Shown piece after piece: positions 49,940 to 54,443 of a stretch of 64,000 bases of DNA. The stretch comes from Thermococcus aggregans (GTDB taxonomy: Archaea; Methanobacteriota_B; Thermococci; Thermococcales; Thermococcaceae). A program made the translations under genes and the position numbers. The stretch covers positions 124,001 through 188,000 of the forward strand of contig NZ_CP099582.1 of NCBI RefSeq assembly GCF_024022995.1. Reading direction: 5' to 3'. The number at the start of each line of letters is the position of its first letter. Within the stretch, counting starts at the first letter, position 1. The notes under the pieces are model-generated. The model did no database searches. It was not told where the DNA came from and saw nothing but the letters and a program-made list of their open reading frames with translations.

Positions 49940-50878
49940 ATGATCTACGCAATAGGAGAGGTCCTAATAGACTTTATTGCAAAAGAAGAAGGAAAACTGA
50001 AAAACGTTAAAGAGTTTGAAAAGCATCCTGGCGGTGCTCCAGCGAATGTTGTTGTTGGCTTGAGGAAGCTCGGGATAAAAAGCGGATTGATAAGCAAAGT
50101 CGGTGCCGATCCCTTTGGTGAATTTCTCATAGAGGCACTCAAAAAAGAAGGGGTTGAAACGAAATACATAGTAAAGGACGTAAACAAACACACGGGAATA
50201 GTTTTTGTCCAGCTTATAGGGGCAAAGCCCGAATTTATATTGTACGATGGTGTGGCATACTTTAACTTAAAGAAAGAAGAGATAGAATGGGATTTTACAA
50301 AAGATGCTGAGCTTCTACATTTTGGAAGCGTTCTCTTTGCGAGGGAACCAAGCAGATCAACCGTCTTTGACGTTCTTAGAAAAGTTAAAGGAAAAATTCC
50401 TCTTAGCTATGATGTCAACATCAGGCTTGACCTGTGGAGAGAAAAAGAGGGAGAAATGCTCAGGGATATAGAAGAGGCTCTCAGGCTTGCAGATATAGTA
50501 AAAATCGGAGATGAGGAATTAAGCTACCTCGACAAAAACGGAATAACACTCGAAGACTTCAGATTTGATCTCATGGCAATAACAAAAGGCGCTAAAGGAA
50601 GTACAATTATCCACAAGGATATAAGCGTTAATGTTCCCTCATTTAAGGTTAAGCCTGTAGATACCACCGGAGCTGGAGATGCCTTTATGGCAGCCCTCTT
50701 GGCTTCTCTCTCGTATATGGGCAAGCTGAACAAATTAGAGTTCTCCAAAGAACAACTGGAGGAACTTGGGAGTTTTGCAAACTTGGTGGCTGCGCTCTCA
50801 ACTACGAAACGGGGAGCATGGAGTGTGCCAAACTTAGATGAAATTTTGAAGTATAGAAGATTCAGCTTCCTTCCATAG
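49940..50878 (+). CDS. PfkB-family sugar kinase (fructokinase-like)
   Basis: A 312-residue ribokinase-fold kinase. N-terminal signature HPGGAPANVVVGLRKLG (residues about 29-45) and C-terminal DTTGAGDAFMAALLASL with the catalytic Asp in GAGD. An ATP-dependent fructokinase of this family was described from T. litoralis, so fructose phosphorylation is the best guess; other hexoses or nucleosides cannot be excluded. It diverges from the mal operon across 217 nt; its own TATA (AAAACTTTAAG, about 49898-49908) lies far from the TrmB site. Ribosome binding site GGGGGT. Confidence 0.8.
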   Translation: MIYAIGEVLIDFIAKEEGKLKNVKEFEKHPGGAPANVVVGLRKLGIKSGLISKVGADPFGEFLIEALKKEGVETKYIVKDVNKHTGIVFVQLIGAKPEFILYDGVAYFNLKKEEIEWDFTKDAELLHFGSVLFAREPSRSTVFDVLRKVKGKIPLSYDVNIRLDLWREKEGEMLRDIEEALRLADIVKIGDEELSYLDKNGITLEDFRFDLMAITKGAKGSTIIHKDISVNVPSFKVKPVDTTGAGDAFMAALLASLSYMGKLNKLEFSKEQLEELGSFANLVAALSTTKRGAWSVPNLDEILKYRRFSFLP

Positions 50879-51179
50879 GTTCTTCTTTTTTACCAAAAAG
50901 CCCAATTAAATCGTGGAGTATTGCCAAATCTATGGCAGCGTTCAATGATTGAAAAAGATTCCCCGCCATCAGCATTAAGAGTGCAAAGAAAAAGTCTACT
51001 CCTTTGTATGCAATGGTTATTTTTATAGCCCTTCTTTCGCCTCTAACTATCCCCCAAGCGAGGAGGAAGTTCAAAAGACCAAAAATAAGCAACATATACC
51101 TTTCGCTCCCAAAAGCACCGGCTGAATAATACAAAAGGAAAAGTGATTGGAGAAATAACAGATACACGGCAATTTTCAT
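50862..51179 (-). CDS. Small hypothetical membrane protein
   Basis: A 105-residue protein with four hydrophobic segments (about residues 3-22, 27-45, 52-70, 76-94) and a short charged tail GKKEEPMEGS. No family recognised. Its ATG overlaps the stop of the cysteine-synthase-like gene, so it is co-transcribed with it, and its 3' end overlaps the convergent sugar kinase by 17 nt. Confidence 0.65.
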   Translation of the reverse strand: MKIAVYLLFLQSLFLLYYSAGAFGSERYMLLIFGLLNFLLAWGIVRGERRAIKITIAYKGVDFFFALLMLMAGNLFQSLNAAIDLAILHDLIGLFGKKEEPMEGS

Positions 51180-52085
51180 TGACCATCACTCAAGTATCTC
51201 TCAAATGCATCAACGTATTTAAACCCATCGTCTGGAAATACCAAAACTGCAGTCCCGGGGTATTTATCACGGATTTTCTCAAAAGCTTTAACCACCGCGC
51301 CCGAACTCAGACCTATTAAAAGGCCCTCTTCTCTGGCTATCTGTATTGATCCTTCGATTGCTTCTCTTTGGGTAATCTCGATTACTTCGTCAATCTCCAC
51401 CTTAAAGAACCATTTTGGCTTTGTTTCGAGCCTTTTTATGCCCGGTATCTTTTTGCCTTTGGCCGGTACTACTCCAATAACTTTTGTGTTGTAGCGTTCC
51501 TTGAAATATTTCGCTATTCCCCCTATGTGGCCCGAAGTGCCTATTCCTGCTACTATAAGGTCGGGCTTTTTGCCTATACTTTTCAGTTGTTCGTCTATTT
51601 CTCTGGCAGTAAAGCGATAGTGGGCCTCGAAATTGTCTTCATTCTCGAACTGATTGAGGTTGGCTGCCCTAGCTTTCCTTGCTTCTTCGACGACGTGCTC
51701 AACCATATTAGGATCTATAGTCTCAAAATCGGTCATAACTACCTCCGCGCCGAGTACTTTGAGCAGGATTTGGGTAGCCTTTGGTGTCGGCTTTGGCAGA
51801 TATGCTCTAAACCCTATTCCCAGAACGTTGCTGAGAGCCGCGAGAGAAATCCCAACGTTTCCAGAAGTTGCTTCAAAAATTTTTCGAACACCGTTGATGT
51901 CCCCACGCTCAAGGGCTTTCATGAGCATATTGAAAACTGTCCTGTCCTTTATGCTCCTGCTGAAGGGGTTAAAGAACTCCAGCTTGGCAAAATACATCCC
52001 TCCTTTCATCTGAAAGTGAAAGCCTGAGCAGGGGAGTTGGTTTGAATTTTTCAAAGAGCTCGAGTGGATTGTTGAACACGTTCAT
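51176..52085 (-). pseudogene. Cysteine synthase-like PLP enzyme, interrupted by a +1 frameshift
   Basis: A fold-type II PLP enzyme of the cysteine synthase/cystathionine beta-synthase family. Normal translation would start at ATG 52085 (GGTGAT upstream) and read MNVFNNPLELFEKFKPTPLL...DERRDVF. An extra T in a run of four (plus-strand A run 51989-51992) then shifts the frame to Cys-Gln and a stop 19 nt on. The other frame continues AKLEFFNPFSRSIKDRTVF, with the PLP lysine in SIKDR, EATSGNVGISLA, and GIGTSGHIGG for the phosphate. Removing one T restores a roughly 302-residue protein. A real null mutation, slippage, or a sequencing error are all possible. Confidence 0.8.
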
Positions 52086-52162
52086 TTTTGATCACCGTAT
52101 TGGCCTTTTAATCGGCGCTTATAAGTGTTTCTTTTGCGGCAATCTTATACAAAAATGTGTAT

Positions 52163-52756
52163 TCAACACTCTTTTCCAAAGACTTCCCTGTAAATCTTTT
52201 TGAACTCGCCGAGGGCTCCTCTTATTATGGGATGCCTCGGCACGAAATTACAGCTTTCTTCAGGCTCTATACTTATCTCAAACGTGCCTATACCTTTTGC
52301 AATTCTCTCGATCTCTATTTTGTCCATTGCTATAAGCGGTCTGAGTATCGGTAGATCAGTTGCAAGGCTTATTATTAGAAGGTTATCAAGGGTTTGAGAG
52401 GCAACTTGGCCAAGAGAGTCTCCAGTGATTATCGCCATGGCGCCTTTTTCTTTTGCTATCTCCGTGGCTTTCATGAACATGCTGAGTTTGCAAAAAATGC
52501 ATATCCACTTTTCTTTTTTCATCTTTATCAGCCTATCAAAGATAGGTTTTTGGTATTCAAGGGCATCAACAACAATCAGCTCTTCTAGCCTATCGGGGTA
52601 AAGTTCCTTAAGTCTCAGCCAGATTCTCCTAACTTTTTGATAATTAATCTCGCTCTGCATGAAGTGAATCGGATAAACCGTAAAACCTTTTTTGAGCATG
52701 AGGTGTATCGCCACAGGCGAATCTATCCCAGAGCTCAAGAGTGCAACAGCCTTCAC
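52163..52756 (-). CDS. Stand-alone ThiI-like PP-loop protein
   Basis: A 197-residue protein matching only the C-terminal AANH domain of ThiI. PP-loop LSSGIDSPVAIHLMLKKG (7-24), CIFCK (CxxC, about residues 86-90), ITGDSLGQVASQTLDNL and the RGALGEFKKIYREVFG tail all parallel the full ThiI at 53280-54428. It lacks NFLD and THUMP domains, so it would need another way to bind tRNA, or acts on a different substrate. GTG start after GGAGGTGG. In one operon with DUF998 and ThiI. Confidence 0.8.
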   Translation of the reverse strand: MKAVALLSSGIDSPVAIHLMLKKGFTVYPIHFMQSEINYQKVRRIWLRLKELYPDRLEELIVVDALEYQKPIFDRLIKMKKEKWICIFCKLSMFMKATEIAKEKGAMAIITGDSLGQVASQTLDNLLIISLATDLPILRPLIAMDKIEIERIAKGIGTFEISIEPEESCNFVPRHPIIRGALGEFKKIYREVFGKEC

Positions 52757-53283
52757 TCTTCCACCTCCAGAGTTAGATAAACTATCCAGGCGTTTATGAA
52801 GAGAGCCCCCACAAGTTCCGGGATGGCAAGTCCGTCAAATATTGTAGTAAGATAAAGCATCATCATGAATACTATCGGGCTGCCAAGAAGCCATACGATA
52901 GCAAACCTCTTTTTTCTCCTTGCCCTCAAGCCATAGACAAAGATATCTGCAAAGAGCAAGATGTAAAAGGAGAGTGCAAAAAATGAATGGGGCTTATATT
53001 CTTCGGGAAATACTCCTACAAGCAACAAAGAGAACATGCCAAGAGAAAAGAGGATAGTGACTCTTTTCTCCTTTAACATTTCAATACCAAATACCATTCC
53101 GAGAAAGCCAAGAAAAACCAGCAAGGAATTGAAAGCATATCCTATAGGATTTTTAATGGAACCCATATCACTGAGAGCATTTTCTGTTAGAGAAAACCAA
53201 GGATTCAAGTGGATGGCGATAAAGATGCCACCAAAAGTAAGAAACGGAAAGGAAAGTCCCAAACCTCTAACCCACTTTTTCAT
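52753..53283 (-). CDS. DUF998 membrane protein
   Basis: A 176-residue protein with about six hydrophobic segments, containing FSLTENALSDMGSIKNPIGYAFN and VGVFPEEYKPHSFFALSFY, the two conserved blocks of DUF998. Function unknown. Four-nt overlaps at both ends place it in the thiI operon between the two PP-loop genes. Confidence 0.75.
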   Translation of the reverse strand: MKKWVRGLGLSFPFLTFGGIFIAIHLNPWFSLTENALSDMGSIKNPIGYAFNSLLVFLGFLGMVFGIEMLKEKRVTILFSLGMFSLLLVGVFPEEYKPHSFFALSFYILLFADIFVYGLRARRKKRFAIVWLLGSPIVFMMMLYLTTIFDGLAIPELVGALFINAWIVYLTLEVEE

Positions 53284-54428
53284 TGACATCCCCTTTTCCC
53301 CGGCTCTTCACCAAAGACTGCTTTGTAAAGCTTTTTGAACTCCTCCCAGGAACCCCTTATTACCAGATGCTTTGGAATAAACGGTACCTCATCCTCTGGT
53401 AGTGTTGAAAGTTCAAAAGTTCCAATAGTCTTTGCGATTGCCACTATCTCTTCCTTATCCATCCCCACTAACGGCCTATAAATTGGCAGATCACTTGCTT
53501 GACTTATTATATACATGTTTTCCAGCGTTTGAGAAGCTACTTGACCCAAAGAGTCTCCCATAACAATCCCCTTTGCTCCGAATTCCCTCGCAATCTTGTC
53601 AGCTTTTTTAACCATCATATACTTGCAGAAAACGCATGTATAATTCTCTTTTTTAAGCTGTTTTAGCGTTTGAACGATCCTCTCTCTTTCTTGTGGCTTA
53701 ATAACTATTAGGTCACTCTTACCTCCATAGTGATACTTTTTGAGCTGATTCCAGATTCTCCGAACCTTCTCAAGGGTCTTCTCTCCAACATAAATATGGA
53801 CGGGGATTACTTCACATCCCCGCTTCATCATCAGAAAAGCCGCAACCGGAGAATCTATGCCCCCGCTTAAAAGAGCCACGATCTTCCCTTGAGTTCCTAC
53901 TGGAAGACCGCCAAATCCCTGGAATTTATCAACATGGATGTATGCCTTCCCTTCCATTAGCTCAATTCCTACCTCAATATCATAGTTTTTCAAATCTACC
54001 CTGCATTCTTCGTTTTTTAATATGTACTCGCCAACTTTAGCGGCCAGCTCTTGGCTTTTAAGGGGAAATTCCTTGGTTATTCTCCTTGCAGTTACTCTGA
54101 ATCTTGGCCTTTCCAATCCAAGTGCCCTCATTTTTCTTCTAAACAGCTTTAGGGAGGTTTTATATATTTTGTCCAGCTCTCCATCTACCTCAGCAGCAGG
54201 TGAAAGCGATACTATGCCAAAAACCCGTTTGAGAACTTCCACGCTTTTTTCCGCTTTGTTAGTCTTTACAATAATCCTGCCATGCTTTGCAAAGACGTTC
54301 TTGTATTCTATGCCCTCACTTAAGAGTGCTTCTTTTATGTTGTTGAGTAAAATGCTTTCAAACCACCTTCTCGTTTTTGGAGACTTTGTGCCTATCTCGC
54401 CGTATCTGACTATTATGGCATTTAGCAT
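53280..54428 (-). CDS. thiI: tRNA 4-thiouridine synthase ThiI
   Basis: A 382-residue protein with NFLD plus THUMP domains (about 1-165) and a C-terminal PP-loop domain: LLSGGIDSPVAAFLMMKRG, CVFCKYMM (CxxC), GDSLGQVASQTLENM. It adenylates U8 of tRNA and replaces oxygen with sulfur. It lacks the bacterial rhodanese domain; archaeal ThiI uses cysteines or an Fe-S cluster at the CxxC and sulfide as donor. ATG 54428 has GGTGG 6 nt upstream. Confidence 0.92.
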   Translation of the reverse strand: MLNAIIVRYGEIGTKSPKTRRWFESILLNNIKEALLSEGIEYKNVFAKHGRIIVKTNKAEKSVEVLKRVFGIVSLSPAAEVDGELDKIYKTSLKLFRRKMRALGLERPRFRVTARRITKEFPLKSQELAAKVGEYILKNEECRVDLKNYDIEVGIELMEGKAYIHVDKFQGFGGLPVGTQGKIVALLSGGIDSPVAAFLMMKRGCEVIPVHIYVGEKTLEKVRRIWNQLKKYHYGGKSDLIVIKPQERERIVQTLKQLKKENYTCVFCKYMMVKKADKIAREFGAKGIVMGDSLGQVASQTLENMYIISQASDLPIYRPLVGMDKEEIVAIAKTIGTFELSTLPEDEVPFIPKHLVIRGSWEEFKKLYKAVFGEEPGKRGCQ

Positions 54429-54443
54429 TATCATCCACCGAGT

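Follow-up and report, generated by a model that had tools for sequence, protein, structure and literature searches.

The cysteine synthase gene (cysK) of Thermococcus aggregans is divided between two reading frames at a site conserved across the Thermococcaceae, and sequence comparison indicates that its full-length product is very probably made by programmed +1 ribosomal frameshifting with an internal Shine-Dalgarno (SD)-like element. The comparison revealed a conserved composite signal at the break, a flip of the protected reading frame at a UUU codon, and similar selection on the two halves of the gene. We further infer that the ribosome rather than RNA polymerase slips, that SD pairing would stimulate the slip, and that scarcity of Cys-tRNA would raise its frequency.

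The region analyzed was a stretch of 64,000 nucleotides (hereafter, the window; contig NZ_CP099582.1, positions 124,001 to 188,000), and cysK lies on its minus strand. The frame-0 start, ATG 52085, is preceded by a Shine-Dalgarno sequence, GGTGATC (52090–52096), and by a TATA-like promoter element (CTTATAAGC, 52117–52125). The initial annotation had described a single-base frameshift in a cysteine synthase-like gene, with a correct N-terminus running into an early stop, and both points were borne out. Frame 0 (51969–52085) translates as MNVFNNPLELFEKFKPTPLLRLSLSDERRDVF-CQAGVL-stop, breaking at UUU-UGC-C (51986–51992) and ending, through the codons UUU-UGC-CAA-GCU-GGA-GUU-CUU-UAA, in a stop codon at 51969–51971. 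The four-T run on the coding strand is where it had been placed (51989–51992), and comprises the putative P-site Phe codon UUU (51990–51992) and the next U. The rest of the enzyme does follow in the next frame: the +1-frame ORF (51176–51988) runs from GCC (Ala33) to its stop, staying open down to 51176, and its PLP lysine (K46) is intact within SIKDR. Removing one T, that is, taking TTTT as a single Phe, restores the whole protein as predicted, at 302 residues.

The fused protein has one Pfam PALP domain (residues 14–283), and its residues 3–297 align with the Aeropyrum pernix O-phosphoserine sulfhydrylase (CysO, 1wkv; E = 5.6e-54), the closest solved relative by sequence. It is full length and carries both K46 and the TSGN loop (T73–N76), and its matches to the NCBIfam cysKM, cysM, and cysK models were below their curated cut-offs. 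K217 aligns with A. pernix Arg297, placing a basic residue at this position for O-phosphoserine. By these features, cysK is an O-phosphoserine/O-acetylserine-type cysteine synthase of the Thermococcaceae, with the substrate predicted. In the predicted structure (mean pLDDT 86.3, and 76 for residues 31–40), the junction residue F32 is inside a predicted strand (residues 29–35). The nearest folds include the A. pernix enzyme (TM 0.88–0.90, 36% identity), with the match passing through the junction. CysO differs in having about 80 extra N-terminal residues, the match beginning at its residue 83, and we know of no frameshift in it. Only two other matches to the fused protein were detected in the genome of the window, both weak (E = 4e-9 and 1.4e-7) and probably representing other PLP enzymes; the full enzyme is therefore probably obtained through the slip.

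To place the break in its family context, we profiled 94 genomes of the Thermococcaceae (an order-level search likewise returned 94). A close cysK match was detected in 65 genomes, and 62 of these have the shift site; a match at 1e-30 was absent from the remaining 29, several of which are incomplete drafts. Of the 59 complete family copies, 57 are shifted at the same codon, more than chance would give, and two are uninterrupted (G015 and the second copy of G031). The shift site has the near-invariant motif AGGRGG-GAU-GUH-UUU-UGC-C, and the exact 20-mer GGRGGGATGTNTTTTGCCAA is found in 57 of the 94 genomes, at one site apiece (reversed control, 0). Fifty-two of these are among the 57 genomes with a complete shifted gene, and the other five are G004, G005, G033, G092, and G117, the last with the 20-mer at a contig end and no scored gene. 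The 57 orthologs were chosen by a frame-0 MNVF or VNVF start leading to the conserved block, and not via TTT or TGC. Genomes left out with the site present were G092 (cut at a contig end), G004 (gene interrupted, 20-mer present), G005 and G033 (another lesion), and G103 (an extra base inside the site); also left out were G015 (uninterrupted) and G032 and G035 (fragmentary matches). Matches to the motif with two mismatches were detected at four further places genome-wide, none of which hands over to a long ORF in the motif-strand frames as cysK does, in a check of motif matches rather than a genome-wide frameshift screen.

A total of 24 named loci were also available, of which 16 were read (L115, L118, L119, and L127–L131 were left out), giving nine shifted and seven uninterrupted genes. 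Every title of the nine shifted loci is Thermococci, Thermococcales or below, and several are from the same assemblies as the genomes above and hence not independent. Within the family, the uninterrupted genes are L117 (the G015 copy) and L037, from G031, a genome with a shifted copy as well. The six homologs read from other groups (DHVE2, Thermoprotei, Desulfurococcales/Pyrodictiaceae, and Metallosphaera) read uninterrupted across the junction, and uninterrupted homologs run directly into AKLEF at this position. A tree of 66 rows, 8 of them uninterrupted, did not distinguish whether the uninterrupted G015 and G031 copies are ancestral, transferred, or losses. Fragmentary cysK matches were found in four near-complete genomes, i.e., L101 (G032), L102 (G035), L104 (G014), and L107 (G033), and may reflect repeated loss of cysteine synthesis. 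The available part of the T. gammatolerans genome paper says that prediction yielded no cysteine synthase, and relates auxotrophy to this (PMC2718504).

The codons leading to the shift are nearly fixed in the 57 orthologs, i.e., AGG (n = 52), GGG (n = 53), GAT (n = 56), GTA, GTC, or GTT (n = 36, 20, and 1, respectively), and TTT (n = 57), followed by TGC (n = 57). The GTH codon gives Val in frame 0 in all orthologs and would give Tyr, Ser, or Phe in the +1 frame. After TTT, the +1 frame encodes A-K-L-E in 57 of 57 and frame 0 is variable. Frame 0 is thus protected up to Val and the +1 frame from Ala, which places the frame switch at UUU. The ratio dN/dS was calculated for codons 2–22 in frame 0 (N-part) and for the first 40 codons of the +1 frame (C-part). 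Across 306 pairs with 80–97% identity, it was 0.094 for the N-part and 0.085 for the C-part, and 3.0 and 2.4, respectively, in the opposite frames. With 24 disjoint pairs, the values were 0.094 and 0.099 (opposite frames, 3.4 and 2.4), and the N-part reached 0.107 once its last five codons were added. Purifying selection is similarly strong on the two halves, which join at one conserved break, when each is read in its own frame (dN/dS about 0.09).

Synonymous variation is reduced in the first 16 codons past the shift (51941–51988), with a mean ratio of 0.46 that is below each of 206 other 16-codon segments of the gene (lowest, 0.60), possibly indicating a further signal. RNA folding did not account for it, as the consensus folds were weak (−1.8 to −4.7 kcal/mol). 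A stem between the slip region and a downstream AGC-AGR-AGC-AU is possible on paper; it rests on nearly invariant columns, AGC at both serines was also present in six of the eight uninterrupted copies read, and we make no claim for it.

Frame 0 has the appearance of a gene with normal initiation, given that an SD-like string is found within 18 nt of its start in 57 of 57 orthologs; a TATA-like string was detected in 35 of the 57 by a simple string test. Upstream of the slip codon is an internal SD-like element, AGGAGG in the window (51999–52004) and AGGGGG in most relatives. UUU-U is present in all 57 orthologs, such that the P-site tRNA is able to re-pair one base downstream; the genome has 45 tRNA genes (44 typed), with one tRNA-Phe(GAA) and one tRNA-Cys(GCA). 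The frame-0 codon that would occupy the A site at the shift, UGC (Cys; 51987–51989), has no earlier Cys codon before it in any of the 57 orthologs. The frame-0 stop, counting UGC, comes at three codons in four genes and at six codons in 53. The possibility of a slippage site allowing some full-length product had been raised in the initial annotation, and the evidence goes beyond this, to a conserved composite signal of SD-like element, UUU, an immediately following UGC, and an in-frame stop within six codons.

The spacing of the internal element was compared with initiation in the same genome, using 344 ORFs from 464 kb, of which 212 have a strong SD. Among these, 159 have an aligned spacing of 9–11 and five a spacing of 8. 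For the internal element, the aligned spacing to UUU is 8 both in the window and for two further site types, and a +1 slip would raise it to 9; G008 has its best internal pairing at a spacing of 6, and that pairing is weaker. An SD-like sequence is thus present at strained spacing before the slip codon, and we propose that it stimulates the slip. Devaraj and Fredrick reportedly found in 2010 that a short SD spacing favors slipping in the +1 direction. The anti-SD used here was an assumed sequence; the pattern expected for the 16S end had no match in the genome, and the hexamers GAGGTG, AGGTGA, and GGTGAT were enriched before starts, which fits the anti-SD assumed.

It is improbable that the enzyme starts instead at an internal AUG of the +1 frame (51995–51997), with the frame-0 ORF serving as a leader peptide or separate small fragment. 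This start codon is kept in all 57 orthologs (ATG in 56 and GTG in one), so an additional short product may be made from it. We take G036 to be T. kodakarensis and G074 to be T. onnurineus, whose TON_1004 is presumably this cysK. In G036, the gene is shifted and its internal-AUG product has 273 residues with a Lys at position 188, equivalent to K217 of the fused protein. The TK1687 protein of T. kodakarensis is likewise given as 273 residues with Lys188 named, and its disruptant showed cysteine auxotrophy, in the available part of that report (PMC5120207). As these values fit the internal-AUG product, TK1687 seems to be the same gene, with a published model that very likely starts inside it, about 30 N-terminal residues short. 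The auxotrophy, together with the shifted gene, indicates that the functional locus carries the frameshift. The word "frameshift" is absent from the main text of PMC5120207, and CysK is not among the recombinant proteins named in its available part. Detection of the TON_1004 protein in starch-grown cells, as given in the accessible text (PMC4463584), is compatible with either start. Against the internal start, the frame-0 N-part is under enzyme-like selection and contains a TPL motif common to uninterrupted homologs, and the codon after the AUG varies among Tyr, Ser, and Phe in the +1 frame while remaining Val in frame 0 in every ortholog. The G-rich element abuts the AUG, compared with an aligned spacing of 9–11 for 159 of 212 strong SDs, and is likely too near to serve as its SD. 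The product would also be without the TPL motif and would begin midway through the predicted strand 29–35.

Slippage by RNA polymerase would yield some mRNAs that lack one base, and at the T run such mRNAs would give an identical protein, yet we consider this very unlikely. A run of four T is short for transcriptional slippage, and the run is four in 56 of the 57 orthologs and six in G022. The window and some other genomes have an interrupted G run, and slipping at that run would move the Val codon into the frame that is not protected. Nor would polymerase slippage explain why an SD-like element sits at a fixed spacing. The initial annotation also considered a recent knockout or a sequencing error, by which the gene would be dead or mis-sequenced. 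Further lesions or fragmentary matches do occur in G004, G005, G033, G103, G014, G032, and G035; however, with the site in 62 of the 65 genomes that have a close match, and purifying selection on both halves, the family-wide comparison refutes both proposals, and their probability is negligible.

Under programmed +1 frameshifting, ribosomes would initiate at ATG 52085 and decode 32 codons, the last being UUU. The 16S rRNA tail would then pair with the SD-like AGGAGG or AGGGGG at a distance shorter, by one base or more, than initiation usually employs, and the strain of this pairing would allow the peptidyl-tRNA-Phe to move from UUU onto the overlapping UUU that begins one base later. The A site would hold GCC (Ala) instead of UGC (Cys), and translation would run to the end of the enzyme. 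Ribosomes taking Cys-tRNA at UGC would keep frame 0 and terminate within six codons, such that scarce Cys-tRNA could raise the shift in a negative feedback, as for RF2 on prfB. Points that count against the model are that two family copies (G015 and the second of G031) and the six homologs outside the family manage without a shift, that the gap after AGGAGG is 6 nt and not the 3 nt of prfB, and that pairing is weaker in G008.

Whether the site senses cysteine is evenly balanced in our judgment: lack of Cys-tRNA may turn on a nearly Cys-free, cysteine-making enzyme through the Cys codon in the A site, making it a cysteine-starvation switch. CysRS was detected in the genome and SepCysS only below its cut-off, a combination that should make the Cys-tRNA supply dependent on free cysteine. 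The fused enzyme is without Cys in 53 of 57 orthologs and has a single Cys in each of the others (G026, G034, G036, and G076), which would fit production under Cys shortage. This is weak evidence, because Cys makes up only 0.5% of the genome's long ORFs (71,138 residues), a content at which about one in five proteins of 302 residues would arithmetically have none, and because the uninterrupted relatives are also Cys-poor (C-part only; no Cys in four of eight, one in three, and two in one). Moreover, UGC is automatic once UUU-U precedes the conserved Ala codon GCN, and its conservation is thus not independent proof of Cys sensing. The programmed shift could instead be constitutive, serving to fix the amount of enzyme or to live with an insertion that became frozen, with no sensing of Cys-tRNA. 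This variant fits all the structural evidence equally, including the forced UGC, and is a plausible contender that we hold tentatively, at somewhat under even chances; it leaves unexplained why a wasteful site has persisted in more than 50 species, given that uninterrupted versions exist.

The site resembles that of bacterial prfB (RF2) in its early position in the gene, in an internal SD-like element approaching AGGGGG, in the C after the A-site triplet, and in having the decoding of the A-site codon depend on the protein that the gene encodes. Both also have a pyrimidine slip run that re-pairs one base on, which is CUU-U in prfB and UUU-U in some genomes, and they differ in how far the SD-like element lies from the slip codon (a gap of 6 nt in cysK and 3 nt in prfB), according to the available text of PMC12421855. 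The cysK site further differs in being archaeal, in having a sense codon (Cys) rather than a stop in the A site, and in belonging to a metabolic enzyme. Hungry-codon frameshifting shares the proposed trigger, i.e., an A site left empty by a scarce aminoacyl-tRNA while the P-site tRNA slips. In the parts of the two reviews available, it is described as an effect that aminoacyl-tRNA limitation has in general (PMC8211752, PMC5009743), whereas cysK has a conserved site in an amino-acid-making gene, with sensing proposed. Saccharolobus solfataricus fucA1 is likewise an archaeal enzyme gene with a programmed frameshift, but one in the −1 direction with a heptamer slip site and a putative stem-loop, and, according to the available text of the 2021 review, no second −1 case has been reported for archaea, fucA1 being the sole programmed frameshift that it gives for them (PMC8211752). 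The 2016 review, in its available part, rates a +1 case in an archaeal virus as very likely and Mg-chelatase cases as likely (PMC5009743). Our literature search, which covered main texts, returned no description of a cysK frameshift; a GeneTack cluster with this gene is possible, and "cysteine", "Thermococc", and "Pyrococcus" are all absent from the GeneTack survey main text as available (PMC3711429).

If correct, the proposed mechanism would give archaea a +1 programmed frameshift in a cellular gene. It would also carry over to a sense codon, and to the enzyme that provides the matching amino acid, a logic that prfB applies to a stop codon and its release factor. With Cys sensing, it would represent a natural hungry-codon feedback circuit in cysteine synthesis, and the regulatory use of starvation frameshifting would become directly testable in a genetically tractable host. 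Gene models that begin at the internal AUG, as that of TK1687 seems to, would miss about 30 N-terminal residues.

Directly downstream of cysK on the same strand (window 50862–51179) is a gene for a hydrophobic-looking protein of 105 aa without a Pfam match. The gene directly upstream (52163–52756, minus strand) encodes a ThiI-like PP-loop protein that is short (197 aa) and stands alone (Pfam ThiI, 7.3e-55), and is located next to a full-length ThiI gene (53280–54434); the short protein is possibly a second sulfur-transfer enzyme.
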